Virus record (IMG/VR): IMGVR_UViG_3300004092_000008
Location: 1-24,070 of that record
Direction: 5' to 3' (one strand)
Length of the DNA stretch: 24,070 bases
Origin: a virus
Part shown: piece by piece, positions 1,035 through 21,392 of the stretch
Position numbering within the stretch: the stretch's first letter is position 1
Layout: every line of letters begins with the position of its first letter
Made by a program: the position numbers and the translations under genes
Notes under the pieces: generated by a model
Seen by the model: only the letters and a program-made list of their open reading frames with translations
Databases searched by the model: none
Told to the model about the DNA's origin: nothing

Positions 1035-1063
1035 TGAACTATTCGGATTAACCGAAAGGTTGG

Positions 1064-1088
1064 AAGCCACGCAAGTCGTGGCTTTTTT
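1064..1088 (+). terminator. Rho-independent terminator after the scaffold gene
   Basis: A perfect 8-bp stem (AAGCCACG 1064-1071, CGTGGCTT 1077-1084) with a 5-base loop runs into six Ts (1083-1088). A weaker 5-bp hairpin, TTCGG-attaa-CCGAA at 1042-1056, lies just before it. It would end or attenuate the transcript carrying portal and scaffold before the capsid gene. Confidence 0.85.
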
Positions 1089-1090
1089 AT

Positions 1091-1104
1091 GTCTAAATTT
1101 AGAC
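1091..1104. repeat. 14-bp perfect palindrome GTCTAAATTTAGAC
   Basis: A perfect dyad with no loop directly after the terminator's T-run. With no loop it is more likely a protein-binding site or chance than an RNA hairpin. Confidence 0.6.
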
Positions 1105-1149
1105 CATGGACTAAATGGCTCTTAATCTTAGCATGAATTCAGTCGATCA

Positions 1150-1165
1150 AAACCGAATTCGGTTT
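1150..1165. repeat. 16-bp perfect palindrome AAACCGAATTCGGTTT
   Basis: A perfect dyad. The same two half-sites, AAACCGAA and TTCGGTTT, recur on the other side of the inverted-repeat element at 1401-1425, there separated by 9 bases. The symmetric placement suggests a paired protein-binding site or a nested repeat structure. Confidence 0.65.
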
Positions 1166-1173
1166 AGCCATAA

Positions 1174-1192
1174 CCGAATAGCACATATTCGG
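1174..1192. repeat. Hairpin CCGAATA / TATTCGG
   Basis: A perfect 7-bp stem (1174-1180 and 1186-1192) with a 5-base loop, seven bases before the left 17-bp inverted repeat. Confidence 0.6.
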
Positions 1193-1198
1193 CTTTAG

Positions 1199-1389
1199 TT
1201 TGGTTCATGCCGAAAAATGCGTACGCAGCGGCGCTCGATTCGCATTATTCGCTTTTTCGCGCAGAGTCAGAACTTTCGCACCGTGTTGATTTATATACAA
1301 TTTATCAAATAAAAAATGCGAATAAAAAGCGGAAAACCCTCTTTCGCCTTTTTTCCGCATGTGATATAGGGGTTTCGGCATGAACCAAA
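1199..1389. repeat. 191-bp segment bounded by 17-bp perfect inverted repeats
   Basis: TTTGGTTCATGCCGAAA at 1199-1215 is the exact reverse complement of 1373-1389, leaving 157 bases between them. The interior contains the palindrome TGCGTACGCA (1218-1227), repeated TTCGCATT/ATTCGC motifs, an AT-rich core and an internal hairpin at 1329-1358. No transposase and no clear target-site duplication is visible at the edges (TAG before, ATC after). It resembles a MITE-like element or one large cruciform-forming unit. The class is inferred; the repeat itself is directly visible. Confidence 0.7.
1329..1358 (-). terminator. Possible minus-strand terminator-like hairpin
   Basis: Arms GCGGAAAA (1329-1336) and TTTTCCGC (1351-1358) form an 8-bp stem with a 14-base loop. 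Read on the minus strand, the right arm is followed by TTTTTATT, as in a rho-independent terminator. No minus-strand gene lies upstream, so it may only be part of the repeat array. Confidence 0.35.
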
Positions 1390-1405
1390 ATCTCATACCG
1401 AAACC
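1371..1405. repeat. 13-bp imperfect hairpin overlapping the right inverted repeat
   Basis: GGTTTCGGCATGA (1371-1383) pairs with TCATACCGAAACC (1393-1405) with one mismatch and a 9-base loop. It shares its left arm with the 17-bp inverted repeat, so local folding competes with the long-range pairing to 1199-1215. Confidence 0.6.
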
Positions 1406-1425
1406 GAAAACGATTGATTCGGTTT
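1401..1425. repeat. Hairpin AAACCGAA / TTCGGTTT
   Basis: A perfect 8-bp stem (1401-1408, 1418-1425) with a 9-base loop. It overlaps the previous hairpin at 1401-1405, so both cannot form at once. Confidence 0.6.
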
Positions 1426-1426
1426 T

Positions 1427-1468
1427 ACCGCAACTGTGATATTGCGGTACAGTTTTTCGCAGTTGCGG
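1427..1468. repeat. Two mutually exclusive hairpins ending at the promoter
   Basis: CCGCAACTG (1428-1436) pairs perfectly with CAGTTGCGG (1460-1468). Alternatively ACCGCAA (1427-1433) pairs with TTGCGGT (1442-1448). The longer form ends on the first base of the capsid promoter -35 box. Confidence 0.6.
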
Positions 1469-1496
1469 TGACATCATTTAATTCATGTGCTACACT
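1468..1496 (+). promoter_or_regulatory. Sigma70-type promoter for the capsid gene
   Basis: -35 GTGACA (1468-1473), a 17-base spacer, an extended -10 TGC and TACACT (1491-1496). Transcription would begin near 1503, giving a leader of about 110 bases before the capsid start. Its place after the terminator suggests that the capsid gene gets its own strong transcript. Confidence 0.65.
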
Positions 1497-1514
1497 TTGT
1501 GTAATTACGAAAAG

Positions 1515-1574
1515 GCCCGTGAAAAAACCGGATACCGCGAAAGCGCCCGTCAAGATAATGGATACCCTTGAAGT
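1515..1574 (+). repeat. Two copies of a 30-bp degenerate tandem repeat in the capsid leader
   Basis: GCCCGT at 1515-1520 and 1545-1550 and GGATACC at 1530-1536 and 1560-1566 recur with an exact 30-base period. Read in the +1414 frame the units give PVKKPDTAKA and PVKIMDTLEV, with valine kept by different codons (GTG, GTC). That hints at a once-coding repeat. No start codon or ribosome site supports a present-day gene. Confidence 0.5.
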
Positions 1575-1613: not shown

Positions 1614-2453
1614 ATGTCAATGTCACTAGACCAAATTGAGATCCAACAATTTATATCCGATGCTCACGCAGAATTCCAATCCGAAGGTTTCTTGCTCGAA
1701 CCCTCTGTTCGTGTAAAGCAAGGCACCCGCGGTGAAATCATCAACTTCCCAGTGTTTGGTAAAGGTATTGCCAACCAGAAGGGTGTACAGGATGATGTAA
1801 CTCCTCTTGATATCAACTCACGAAATGTGACGTTGACCATGCAAGATTGGTTCGCACCTGAATACGTTGACCGTACTTTCAAGTACAAGTTGGCTGTGAA
1901 TGCTACCCAGGAATATTCTAGTCTTTGCGCACAGGCAATCGGCCGTCGTTCAGATCAGATGATTATCAATGTTATCGCATCTGCTAACTATGGTGGTGGT
2001 TCTGAACAGGGAAATACCGTGCCTGTTTCTGGTAATGCTACCTACGATCAGTTCCTACAAGGCCATAGATTCCTGCGTCAAAATGCAGCTGCCAAAGGCG
2101 ATTTATTCTGCATCATGGATGCCGATGCCGAAGCAAATCTGTTAGCCGATGACCACTTTACCAATATCTTCTTCATGAAGTCACAAACCTTAGCCGGTAA
2201 CGGTCTTGATGGACAAGAAATCTTAGGTATTCGTATCATCGTTCTACCCAATATGCCAGAAGGCGGTTTGACAGACGGCACATACTATATGTACAACCGT
2301 CAAGCAGTTGGTTATGCAGCTAATGCAAGATTGGAAGGTACGATTGACTGGGTTCCAACCAAGGCATCATACCTCATCAATATGTGGTTAGAAGCTAACG
2401 CATGCGTCATTGACCAAACTGGTATGGTTAAATTGACTTATACACCTAATTAA
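1614..2453 (+). CDS. Major capsid protein
   Basis: A 279-aa protein directly downstream of the scaffold gene with its own promoter, as expected for the coat protein of a T7-like phage. The start at 1614 is chosen because TAAGGA (1601-1606) lies 7 bases before it; a second in-frame ATG at 1620 is possible, and an ATG at 1590 precedes the ribosome site. Typical coat features are an N-terminal helix (about residues 4-22), beta-rich segments with RGEIINFPVFGK and a later LEGTIDWVPTKASYLINMW region near the C-terminus, and no signal peptide or membrane segment. It would form the icosahedral shell by HK97-fold packing. The identity rests on position, size and general resemblance to podophage coat proteins. 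No known catalytic motif is expected. Confidence 0.82.
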   Translation: MSMSLDQIEIQQFISDAHAEFQSEGFLLEPSVRVKQGTRGEIINFPVFGKGIANQKGVQDDVTPLDINSRNVTLTMQDWFAPEYVDRTFKYKLAVNATQEYSSLCAQAIGRRSDQMIINVIASANYGGGSEQGNTVPVSGNATYDQFLQGHRFLRQNAAAKGDLFCIMDADAEANLLADDHFTNIFFMKSQTLAGNGLDGQEILGIRIIVLPNMPEGGLTDGTYYMYNRQAVGYAANARLEGTIDWVPTKASYLINMWLEANACVIDQTGMVKLTYTPN

Positions 2454-18235: not shown

Positions 18236-18370
18236 ATGCCATTAAAGAAATCAGCAACTAAGAAAGCACGAGAAGCTAACATAAAGACAGAGATTGACGC
18301 GGGAAAGCCAATTAAGCAAGCTGTGGCCATTGGTTACTCGGTGCAACGTAGGGCTAAAAAAGGTAAATGA
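18236..18370 (+). CDS. Small conserved phage protein (DUF6496-like)
   Basis: A 44-aa ORF with GAGG before the ATG, two bases after the previous stop and overlapping rusA by ATGA. It reads MPLKKSATKKAREANIKTEI followed by AGKPIKQAVAIGYSVQRRA. The pattern K-S-x-K-K-A-x-x-x-N-I-K-x-E-x-x-A-G-x-P-x-K-Q-A-V-A-I-x-Y-S belongs to a small protein family that I recognise as widespread in phages and prophages (DUF6496-type). Its function is not known. It is basic and predicted to be two short helices. Confidence 0.75.
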   Translation: MPLKKSATKKAREANIKTEIDAGKPIKQAVAIGYSVQRRAKKGK

Positions 18371-18729
18371 AGGATGTCATATCCCTTGACCTTCCATGGC
18401 CACCCACTATCAATCATTACTGGTTACAGCGAGGTAAACGCAAATTCCTTTCTGAAAGAGCTCACGGATTCCGAGCAGAAGTCTTTGCAGCATTTAGCGC
18501 CACGCGTTGTCCAGGCTTTGATGCAGATGCTCGACTGGGCTTATCTATCATTGCTTATCCCCCTGATAAACGGAAAAGAGATTTGGACAATCTATTTAAG
18601 GCACTTCTTGATAGTCTTGAACATGCTGGTGTATTTTTTAACGATAATCAGATAGACAGGTTATACATTGAAAGAAAAGAAGCCAAGCTCAACAAGGTCA
18701 TAGTGACTATATGCTCGTTAAAACCATAG
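18367..18729 (+). CDS. rusA: RusA-family Holliday junction resolvase
   Basis: A 120-aa protein, the normal size for RusA, which cuts four-way DNA junctions symmetrically and acts as a dimer. The start LDLPWPPTINHYW matches the family's PPSxN-type N-terminal strand. The core PPDKRKRDLDNLFKALLDSL and FFNDNQID carry the acidic metal ligands D72, D74 and D93 and the lysine K78, equivalent to the D70, D72, D91 and K76 of the E. coli enzyme. All are intact, so it should be active. It would clear branched replicative DNA before packaging. The ATG overlaps the preceding stop (ATGA), and its 3' end overlaps terL by 19 bases, tying it to the packaging motor. Confidence 0.9.
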   Translation: MKDVISLDLPWPPTINHYWLQRGKRKFLSERAHGFRAEVFAAFSATRCPGFDADARLGLSIIAYPPDKRKRDLDNLFKALLDSLEHAGVFFNDNQIDRLYIERKEAKLNKVIVTICSLKP

Positions 18730-20057
18730 ATTACTTTGAGGATATATTCCGAGCTTACCCACATCAGCGTGATTTCTTCTCTGCATTCTTCGTGGGTGAG
18801 GCGCATTACTTCATGGAGAAACTACACAGGCGAGCGGGCAAAGATGCTGAGGCTTTTAATTGTGCTGTGCTATATGCTTGTATGGTTCCTGGTAACTATG
18901 TTTATACGCTGCCTAAGATAGGGCAGGCGCGTAACGTGATTTGGGATGGTAAGGATTTAGAGGGGCAGAGATGGATTGATAAGATACCGAAGCACCTTAT
19001 TAAGAGTCTGAATCAATCAAACTGCAAGATAAACTTTCGTAATGGTTCCATCTTACACATCACAGGTGCAGATGCTCTGATGCAATCACACTTAGGTAGC
19101 AACCTGAAAGGTATAGTGCTCAGCGAGTATCATAAGACCAATCCATCTATTTGGGATTACGTGAGGCCGATTATCAAGCGCTCAGGGGGTTGGGCTATCT
19201 TCCTATTTACGGCTTATGCTAAGGGCCATGCCTTTCGTCTCATGCAAGCTAATATGGATAACCCGCAGTGGTGGTGCAGGTCATTAACTGTGGATGATAC
19301 GCGAGATAATGAAGGCAAGTATATCTTCAGCCCCGAGGATATAGAGGAAGAGAGGCGTTCAGGGATGGATGAGGCTCTTATACAGCAAGAGTATTACTGC
19401 AGTGAAGAGGCTGCCATAAAGGGCACCTTCTTTACCGAGCAAATAGAACACGCATACAAGGAAGGTCGCATAAAGCAGGGCGTAACAGTTGATAAGCATT
19501 TGCCTGTTTTCACCTCTTGGGATATTGGTAGCCGTGATACTAATAGTATATGGTGGTTTCAGAAACAGGGTGATAATTTCGTTTACTTCTATCAGCATGA
19601 TAAAAACTACGGCTCAATTGATTACTACCTGCAGTTGCTTGAGCAAGTACGTGTTAAGTTCCAGTTTCACAAGTACGGCGGTCACTTTCTACCACATGAT
19701 GTTAGTCAGACTGAGTGGACATCGGGAAAGACGCGCCATCAGGTCATGAGAGAGCGAGGGTTGCACATAATGCCCGTACCACGCATGAAGGTGATGGAGC
19801 GTGTACAAGTGGCTCGTAGCTCATTTAAACACGTTATAATTGATAGTGTGGGTTGTAAGAATGGTCTTGAGGCCTTGACAGTGGCCAGGAGCGTGTGGGA
19901 TGAGGCCCGTAGATGTTTTACTTCTGATGAGGAGCATGACTGGAGCTCTCATCCGTCTGCTGCATTCCAGTATGGACTTGTTGGATGGCATGATACTTAT
20001 GCGAAGCAACATCTACAACGGGTACAAGCATATGCAAGAACATACAGCGATGAGTGA
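18711..20057 (+). CDS. terL: Terminase large subunit (packaging ATPase and nuclease)
   Basis: A 448-aa protein. The ATPase part has a Walker A-like HRRAGKDA (39-46), a Walker B GIVLSE ending in the catalytic E139, and a likely coupling motif FLFTAYAKG (164-172). The RNase H-like nuclease part has TSWDIGSRDTNS with D271 and FLPHD with D330. The final motif HDWSSHPSAAFQYG (409-422) has Ala417 where relatives carry Asp (usually SH-x-x-D-A-F-R-Y). It would dock on the portal, pump DNA and cut concatemers. The start overlaps rusA by 19 bases and has only a weak ribosome site (AAGG 13 bases away), suggesting coupling. A TerS-like gene is not upstream but on the opposite strand at 20781-21392. Confidence 0.88.
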   Translation: MLVKTIDYFEDIFRAYPHQRDFFSAFFVGEAHYFMEKLHRRAGKDAEAFNCAVLYACMVPGNYVYTLPKIGQARNVIWDGKDLEGQRWIDKIPKHLIKSLNQSNCKINFRNGSILHITGADALMQSHLGSNLKGIVLSEYHKTNPSIWDYVRPIIKRSGGWAIFLFTAYAKGHAFRLMQANMDNPQWWCRSLTVDDTRDNEGKYIFSPEDIEEERRSGMDEALIQQEYYCSEEAAIKGTFFTEQIEHAYKEGRIKQGVTVDKHLPVFTSWDIGSRDTNSIWWFQKQGDNFVYFYQHDKNYGSIDYYLQLLEQVRVKFQFHKYGGHFLPHDVSQTEWTSGKTRHQVMRERGLHIMPVPRMKVMERVQVARSSFKHVIIDSVGCKNGLEALTVARSVWDEARRCFTSDEEHDWSSHPSAAFQYGLVGWHDTYAKQHLQRVQAYARTYSDE

Positions 20058-20648: not shown

Positions 20649-20821
20649 TTCTTATCCTCTATCTTATGTTCTACAGCTTCTACCACATCAAGTATCAGTT
20701 CAAGTGTGCTTAATGAGGTGGTTGTTTTAACCAGCTTAACTAAGAGCGGGTCCAGGCTTAGCTCATCTAACCGTTTAATCTCATGATTCAGTGCATTCAG
20801 TGCTTGTCTGACCTTGTTCAT
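20645..20821 (-). CDS. 58-aa helical hypothetical protein
   Basis: A minus-strand ORF. The start at 20821 (MNKVRQALNALNHEIKRLDE) is preferred because AAGGA lies 5 bases before it; an in-frame ATG at 20839 has no ribosome site. It overlaps the 3' end of the TerS-like gene by 41 bases in another frame. The chain is two helices with a Leu-rich segment LVKTTTSLSTLELILDVVEA and a Lys-rich end. It could be a small helical partner of its neighbours; no family is recognised. Confidence 0.6.
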   Translation of the reverse strand: MNKVRQALNALNHEIKRLDELSLDPLLVKLVKTTTSLSTLELILDVVEAVEHKIEDKK

Positions 20822-21392
20822 CTTCTTCCTTAAACTCATTTACAGCCGTGCCACCCTTTAGGGCTATCTCAATCTCATCTATACGCTTAGCCAGTTCAGA
20901 TGTTTCATTGACTCGCTGTGCCGTCTCAATCAGATTAGCAAGCTTCACAGCCTCATCAGTATCATAGAGGCCTTTTTGCAATCCTTCAAGAACTACAGTC
21001 ACCATAGTACGAGGGGAGTCGGGAGTTAATAGGCTATTGCTTTCGAGTTGATCTGGCTTCTGTCTAGAATGCTTTTGAAGTTCTTTATAAATCTGTATGT
21101 TTAATGTCTCTGTACCATCAGCCTTTACCTCTACCTGATACTGCCTGAGCAAATCTATCATATGTTCATCAAACTTTATCTTCCCAATGTGATAAGCAAG
21201 CTTAAAATCAGGATAAAGATTTAACCATCTGAAAAAAGTATAAGAAGGCAAATTATTCTCAGAACAAAAAGTATGGTAACTCTTTCCGCTCTCCATTAAC
21301 TGTATTATCTGTGTGCAATGAGTAGGTAAAAATTCCTTGGGTTCCCATGCCTGATACGATCTCGCTGGTTTTTCACCCTTCGGCCAAGCCAT
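20781..21392 (-). CDS. terS: Terminase small subunit-like DNA-binding protein
   Basis: A 203-aa minus-strand protein. Residues about 24-70 show the TerS-type helix-turn-helix: IIQLMESGKSYHTFCSENNL, then PSYTFFRWLNLYPDFKLAYHI (compare G-x-S-x-x-x-x-C-x-x-x-x-x-x-x-x-T-x-x-R-W-L-x-x-x-x-x-F...Y in phage TerS). A charged central part (75-125) follows, then a helical region (about 128-178, with ETAQRVNETSELAKRIDEIE) that could oligomerise, and an acidic Glu/Asp/Gln-rich tail as seen in many TerS proteins. TerS recognises pac/cos DNA and regulates TerL. Unusually it is divergent from the rightward operon and convergent to terL. AGGTG stands about 9 bases before the ATG. A DNA-binding regulator with the same fold is the main alternative. 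Confidence 0.65.
   Translation of the reverse strand: MAWPKGEKPARSYQAWEPKEFLPTHCTQIIQLMESGKSYHTFCSENNLPSYTFFRWLNLYPDFKLAYHIGKIKFDEHMIDLLRQYQVEVKADGTETLNIQIYKELQKHSRQKPDQLESNSLLTPDSPRTMVTVVLEGLQKGLYDTDEAVKLANLIETAQRVNETSELAKRIDEIEIALKGGTAVNEFKEEDEQGQTSTECTES

Follow-up and report, generated by a model that had tools for sequence, protein, structure and literature searches.

Every tailed phage particle needs hundreds of capsid subunits, and these must be made in step with the scaffold. In phage T7, the leader of gene 10 is a translational enhancer in front of the capsid gene. To our knowledge, conserved RNA control of capsid genes has hardly been described for DNA phages. The leader RNA described below lies upstream of the capsid gene in a 24,070-base virus record with podovirus genes (the window, meaning the whole stretch of DNA that was analyzed). 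It shares the position of the T7 leader, a short leader between a dedicated promoter and a podovirus capsid gene. The T7 leader, as we know it, lacks the paired C/AYAM loops found here, and the two are likened by function, with no common membership implied. The coat-protein operators of MS2 and Qβ and the leaders of ribosomal-protein genes likewise present a small helix with an asymmetric loop before a gene whose product is made in fixed amount. Unlike these operators and leaders, the leader of the window has two inverted copies of its loop and occurs in double-stranded DNA phages.

The same intergenic gap also contains a candidate DNA operator. Two-part operators of dimeric phage or bacterial repressors and activators similarly have inverted half-sites at fixed spacing beside promoters. 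Unlike these, the window has the half-site AACCGAA/TTCGGTT and combines one gapless unit with one unit that has a 9-base gap.

Gene context of the scaffold–capsid gap

The window encodes tail and internal virion proteins and terminase in addition to its head genes. A scaffold-like ORF (306–1034, stop codon at 1032–1034) is followed by the major capsid protein gene (1614–2453, plus strand, 279 aa), which matches the phrog_3437 major head protein (E = 3e-34) and is preceded by an RBS-like AAGGA at 1602–1606 on the plus strand, assigned from the sequence. The earlier note had described about 380 gene-free bases at 1089–1467. This stretch is indeed overlapped only by short unsupported ORFs (58 and 90 aa), but the true gap is larger, extending over the 579 bases from 1035 to 1613. 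Elsewhere in the window, a gene for a RusA-type Holliday junction resolvase (18367–18729) is found immediately 5′ of the terminase gene; the large terminase subunit is encoded on the plus strand (18711–20057) and a small-subunit-like gene on the minus strand (20781–21392).

A palindrome-dense stretch downstream of the scaffold gene

The stretch 1089–1467 (no strand) contains 14 maximal perfect inverted repeats of at least 8 bp, compared to 1.84 ± 1.39 (maximum 9) in 1000 dinucleotide shuffles. The longest is 17 bp, a length reached in 0 of the 1000 shuffles (maximum 15), and no perfect inverted repeat longer than 10 bp was present in any other 379-base tile of the window. Single-strand folding gave z = −5.7 with DNA and z = −4.7 with RNA parameters, and no shuffle folded equally well. 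The dense inverted repeats that had been claimed for this stretch are therefore far above chance, both by counts and by folding. The 17-bp repeat consists of a left arm, TTTGGTTCATGCCGAAA, at 1199–1215 and a right arm at 1373–1389 (both plus strand), which are exactly complementary over all 17 nt and bound 191 bp, as reported. The half-sites AAACCGAA and TTCGGTTT were found again at 1150–1165, with no gap, and at 1401–1425, with a 9-base gap. Arms can be used by alternative hairpins, since 1371–1383 is also able to pair with 1393–1405, and a further hairpin (arms 1427–1439 and 1457–1469, plus strand) abuts the −35 hexamer of the capsid promoter. The array had also been called symmetric; the symmetry is only partial, and a second 23-bp site at 1172–1194 had been overlooked.

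Three viral contigs (L002–L004) encode nearly the same capsid protein, at 93, 95 and 98% identity within the aligned region. The distance from scaffold stop to capsid start is 153–185 nt in these relatives, compared to 579 nt in the window. Reading downstream, each of their gaps has a −10 box TATACT followed by a leader, in some cases with a terminator ahead of them; the palindromes are present in none. When the 379-base stretch was sought in 21 related records, no match was found at the scaffold–capsid junction, and the only match was a weak one (E = 0.0015) in the record of L128. Because the palindromes are missing from L002–L004 and from this junction in the 21 records, the sequence from 1091 to approximately 1465 is a lineage-specific insertion or expansion, and it looks recently acquired. 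As read from the sequence, the insert is placed between a terminator and the conserved capsid promoter. The putative terminator, a hairpin of 10 pairs with a T tail, follows the scaffold gene at 1062–1090 (plus strand) and has a terminator-like equivalent in L004. The sigma-70-like promoter is found at 1468–1496 (plus strand; GTGACA-17-TACACT, with a TG before the −10), and the relatives have TATACT in place of the TACACT of the window. A single promoter-like match alone is no better than chance, and the support for this promoter is its conserved position. The right part of the gap (1468–1613) thus consists of this promoter and a conserved leader RNA, outside the palindromic insert.

On one reading, the insert is what is left of a decayed MITE or transposon, with the 17-bp repeats as its ends and no present function. 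Like MITEs, it is a gene-free segment of about 190 bp (here 191) bounded by 17-bp perfect terminal inverted repeats, and it is missing from close relatives. Unlike in MITEs, no second copy was seen in the viral sequence searched: the 17-bp ends did not occur as a pair in 2.9 million viral contigs, four single exact 17-bp matches were rejected as being at about chance frequency, and no relative of the 191-bp hairpin was found. No target-site duplication is visible either, the flanks (...CTTTAG and ATCTCA...) having no direct repeat. In addition, the 17-bp ends do not enclose the conserved compound site described below, which other phages carry by itself. The suggestion of a MITE-like insert is thus weakened, and we regard it as unlikely.

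A switching RNA had also been suggested. On this reading, 1089–1467 acts as RNA, and its alternative folds form a switch, or an attenuator, before the capsid gene. The RNA folding score and the shared arms that permit alternative pairings would suit such a role, as would the excess of terminator-like hairpins in 1000–1620 (5 versus 0.7 expected). However, the three close relatives do without any such sequence, which leaves no covariation to count, and, with a strong terminator before it and the conserved capsid promoter after it, the stretch need not be part of the capsid mRNA. A switching RNA at this place is not supported, and we consider it very unlikely. A cluster of terminators was rejected as the sole explanation of the array, since some of the sites found again in other phages have no T run after them.

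A compound DNA site recurs in other phages

The left part of 1089–1467 is a two-unit site, AACCGAATTCGGTT-n7-AACCGAAT-n7-ATTCGGCT, and a third unit with equal spacing starts at 1402. Site I (1151–1164) is the gapless palindrome AACCGAATTCGGTT. Site II (1172–1194) is AACCGAAT-N7-ATTCGGCT with the spacer AGCACAT, and site III (1402–1424) is AACCGAAA-N7-ATTCGGTT with the spacer ACGATTG and the same spacing as site II; none of the three sites has a strand. The core TTCGG/CCGAA occurs 11 times in 1035–1467, while other windows of the same size have a mean of 0.54 and a maximum of 4. The weak match in L128 lies 1.1 kb from the capsid gene, ahead of a leftward gene, and its layout is like that of the window: the palindrome AACCGAATTCGGTT, 6–7 bases, then AACCGAAY-N7-ATTCGGYT.

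We then scanned all viral contigs with a pattern that left the gaps free (ACCGAATTCGGT-N4-14-ACCGAA-N5-12-TTCGG). It matched five contigs, corresponding to four different phages, and site I was the same in all of those that carry it (L128/L230, L228/L232, L229 and L231). The gap between the 7-bp half-sites was 9 in every one, although it had been left free, and in 1.48 Mb of sequence examined the half-sites occurred only at gaps of 0 or 9. With 23 fixed bases and 88 gap combinations, a simple count suggests that far fewer than one match would be expected in up to about 1e11 bases. The contexts of the sites differ and include the start of a leftward operon, a divergent intergenic region and a position beside replication genes. 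BLAST gave nothing useful, either for the whole scaffold–capsid gap in annotated phages or for the 50-bp compound site in phages and plasmids; short palindromic sites are poor queries for it. A match of site I to papillomavirus in published papers was rejected as a short-palindrome coincidence. Three of the phages with the compound site (L228, L230 and L231) have in common a gene for a VRR-NUC-type nuclease.

Recurrence in unrelated gene contexts, at a fixed 9-bp gap, is better explained by control DNA to which a protein binds than by a MITE or a switching RNA. Such a protein-bound site had been among the possibilities raised initially, and it is supported by the same compound site, with equal spacing, in four unrelated phage contexts, although the binding itself is deduced from these features. 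Half-sites that are repeated, held at fixed spacing and conserved between genomes are what an operator array would show, and the palindromic half-sites, the recurrence and the proximity to a promoter appear likewise as expected of a protein-bound operator. The earlier note had held that repeat-free sequence at this junction in homologous phages would point to drift of junk DNA. The close relatives do have such junctions, and the palindromes are dispensable in them, yet the core site recurs elsewhere; because of this recurrence, 1089–1467 is not mere drift.

The main rival to the operator reading takes the compound site for cruciform-forming DNA that serves in recombination or resolution, or as a replication origin, and not as a transcription operator. 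Inverted half-sites around a 7-bp spacer resemble the core sites of tyrosine recombinases, and some carriers have VRR-NUC nucleases and the window a RusA resolvase. However, sites II and III have different spacers, so that the two are not a recombining pair, and no recombinase common to the carriers was found among the carrier pieces examined. The 24-kb window record, which may be a fragment, had no match to the integrase family PF00589; it thus shows neither a nearby recombinase nor the identical partner spacers of a tyrosine-recombinase site. A DNA-binding protein common to the carriers was not found in the carrier pieces examined. We think a recombination or origin site improbable, and we retain the operator reading, in which a site common to five phages points to one common, still unnamed regulator.

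A structured RNA in the capsid leader

The window and its relatives share a stretch after the promoter, AAGGCCYG-n-GGATACC-GCGNAAGC-GCCCG-n-GGATACCCTT; the stretch was also recovered by pattern scanning from a phage whose capsid is only 41% identical. This stretch (1512–1569, plus strand) would fold into a rod in which one asymmetric internal loop, a C opposite AYAM, is present in two copies of inverted orientation. Its helices, all on the plus strand, are P1 (1512–1515/1566–1569), P2a (1517–1520/1558–1561), P2b (1529–1531/1547–1549) and P3 (1536–1538/1543–1545), the last closed by a GAAA loop. In the outer internal-loop module (1515–1566, plus strand), C1516 is opposite AUAC 1562–1565, and in the inner module (1530–1547, plus strand), which has the opposite orientation, AUAC 1532–1535 is opposite C1546.

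A model made from six leaders detected others, also before capsid genes; among these non-seed hits, the best E-values were about 1e-6. Capsid-guided searches and looser patterns brought the collection to 31 distinct leaders. All 31 share the order P1, C/AYAM loop, P2a, P2b, the same loop reversed and P3, with a P3 hairpin of 8 to 45 nt. Compensatory base-pair changes are evident among them. The outer helix changed on both sides (AAGG/CCUU to UUGG/CCAA), and the GNRA tetraloop was kept despite a variable loop base. In 24 leaders picked by primary sequence only, and thus free of structure-filter bias, the first two variable positions of P3 were 100% paired, compared to 48–49% with shuffled partners, through GC, CG, UA, UG and AU pairs; P1, P2a and P2b also had positions that paired far above shuffled partners. 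Among the 31 leaders, 8 of which were kept via a structure filter that favors structure, the mean numbers of contiguous pairs in P1, P2a, P2b and P3 were 3.00, 2.77, 2.61 and 3.23, compared to 1.52, 1.41, 1.59 and 0.94 after strand swapping, and for each of the four helices 0 of 5000 swaps reached the observed value. In a 26-row model alignment, 98.1% of the cells were paired (83.1% when shuffled), 37 cells had double changes (9.4 when shuffled), and the covariation score was 0.325, compared to 0.088 when shuffled and at most 0.13 when the partner was slid. At the level of whole pairs, 5 had a double change, which is not above the shuffles (4.2), so the strength of this test lies in the cells. 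All of these tests leave the relatedness of the sequences in place. The window RNA alone folded only slightly better than shuffles (z = −0.9).

The two loops may change together, as in L022, which has AUAA with ACAA, and L126, which has AUCC with AUCC. In the L126 leader, before position 839, both loops have gone from AUAC to AUCC, as if the same partner reads both. In L012 and L024, which have the same sequence, a third module, CCUAG-C-CCGAAAGG-ACAC-CUAGG, separates the promoter from the main leader RNA.

Searches of the capsid leaders with Rfam 15, at gathering and at permissive thresholds, returned no family; the only hits were two tRNAs elsewhere. No prior description of the capsid leader RNA or of its motif was found in the open-access literature. 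Judged from the alignments, 1512–1569 is a structured leader RNA new to Rfam. The earlier note had proposed that an undescribed phage regulatory element might reside in 1089–1467; such an RNA does exist, but outside that stretch, and its role in regulation is presumed.

Distribution of the leader RNA

The leader RNA was found 31–94 nt before capsid genes, a largely constant position. A loose pattern scan and a scan of one genome per species gave 75 contigs for examination, 20 of which passed a helix test; the 55 that failed were set aside and include a few known carriers missed by the stricter test. In 18 of the 20 passing contigs, an ORF of more than 120 aa with a capsid-like start followed 31–47 nt downstream, and the other two reach the end of their sequence. 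Representative downstream proteins match the phrog_3437 or phrog_267 major head proteins. A strict pattern run over one genome per species from 84,980 bacterial and archaeal species gave one match, a low-complexity repeat rejected as chance.

More distant capsid leaders were searched for single modules, defined by an inner helix of four pairs and an outer helix of three. At least one module was present in 22 of 80 such leaders, many of them near-duplicates that reduce to about eight types, compared to 0.5% of 1475 control windows and 0.5% of 1600 shuffled leaders. Where distant leaders have two modules, these often form two separate hairpins, one per orientation. Among cultured Autographiviridae, the script found the module in the capsid leaders of Roseobacter phages CRP-403 and CRP-804, and modules with shorter outer stems were seen by eye in Rhizobium phages RHEph01 and TRX32-1, Bordetella phage BB8, Pelagibacter phages HTVC019P and HTVC200P and Roseobacter phage CRP-118. 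No clear module was found in the capsid relatives HTVC010P, Vibrio 1.257 and Baldr. For the T7-like relative LUZ100, a local phage promoter has been mapped to the capsid gene from transcript data (PMC10134795). This agrees with a dedicated capsid transcript and says nothing on the motif itself.

Other features were seen in front of capsid genes. A larger and different multi-stem leader, CCCUUAACGCAAGUAACCUUGUCG..GGCUAUCGUAAAUAGCAAGCAC..GGCCCAG..CUGGCAUACC..AGCGAUUAA, is present in Methylophilales phage MEP301 (L106, about 1380–1480). Leaders of this type also occur in podoviruses L026, L029, L031, L033, L034, L036 and L038; they are strongly conserved before capsid genes, have a related C/CNNA loop and match nothing in Rfam. 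In two distant T7-like phages, a tRNA-Asn gene lies just upstream of the capsid leader (Rhizobium phage RHEph01, L233, 242–312; Pseudomonas phage LUZ100, L234, 116–191).

Discussion

On balance, we favor the view, somewhat better than even in our judgment, that the gap 1035–1613 is a two-layer capsid control region, in which an acquired operator array is followed by a conserved leader RNA and each layer is presumably bound by a protein. The leader RNA is the stronger of the two finds and the main reason to follow the finding up.

In the DNA layer, the core of the insert would be a compound operator for a dimeric DNA-binding protein, made of sites I and II, with the layout of site II repeated as site III. 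Site III would lie about 90 bp upstream of the likely transcription start, and the rightmost hairpin touches the −35. A protein bound there would most likely tune the capsid promoter, as an extra regulator in the lineage of the window.

In the RNA layer, the promoter at 1468–1496 would start the capsid mRNA about 8 nt before P1, judging from the position of the −10. Close to the 5′ end of this mRNA, a protein most likely binds both loops; their two-fold arrangement suggests a dimer, and the protein is probably a dimer or two-headed. Once bound, it would set the stability or the translation of the capsid mRNA, with the capsid protein or a host protein as the reader. The leader RNA thus probably controls how much capsid is made.

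Two narrower accounts of the leader RNA each seem to us to have a minor but real chance. The first is that the RNA is a passive 5′ stabilizer that needs no partner protein. Its distance of about 8 nt from the presumed mRNA start is like that of known 5′ stem stabilizers, such as the ompA leader. However, a passive stem would not need two inverted C/AYAM loops, which are conserved across capsids of at most 41% identity. The second, about as tentative as the first, is that the RNA is an operator for the capsid protein itself, so that free capsid protein would bind the loops and repress its own translation. The explanation that we favor leaves the binder open and includes this account as one of its forms. 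The RNA was found before capsid genes only, and the carrier capsids tested match phrog_3437 or phrog_267, which overlap, consistent with autoregulation; a host factor bound in all carrier phages would, however, give an equal distribution.

Returning to the favored two-layer reading, a bolder extension, which we consider doubtful, is that the inverted C/AYAM pair at the 5′ end of the capsid mRNA is an ancient device, present in HTVC010P-like and T7-like podoviruses of many hosts, that senses the level of free capsid protein or of a universal host factor. If this were true, capsid supply would be matched to assembly. The leader RNA remains recognizable while capsid identity falls to about 40% and below, in abundant aquatic phage groups, and it would give a testable handle on the control of capsid dosage, as well as a marker for capsid genes in metagenomes.
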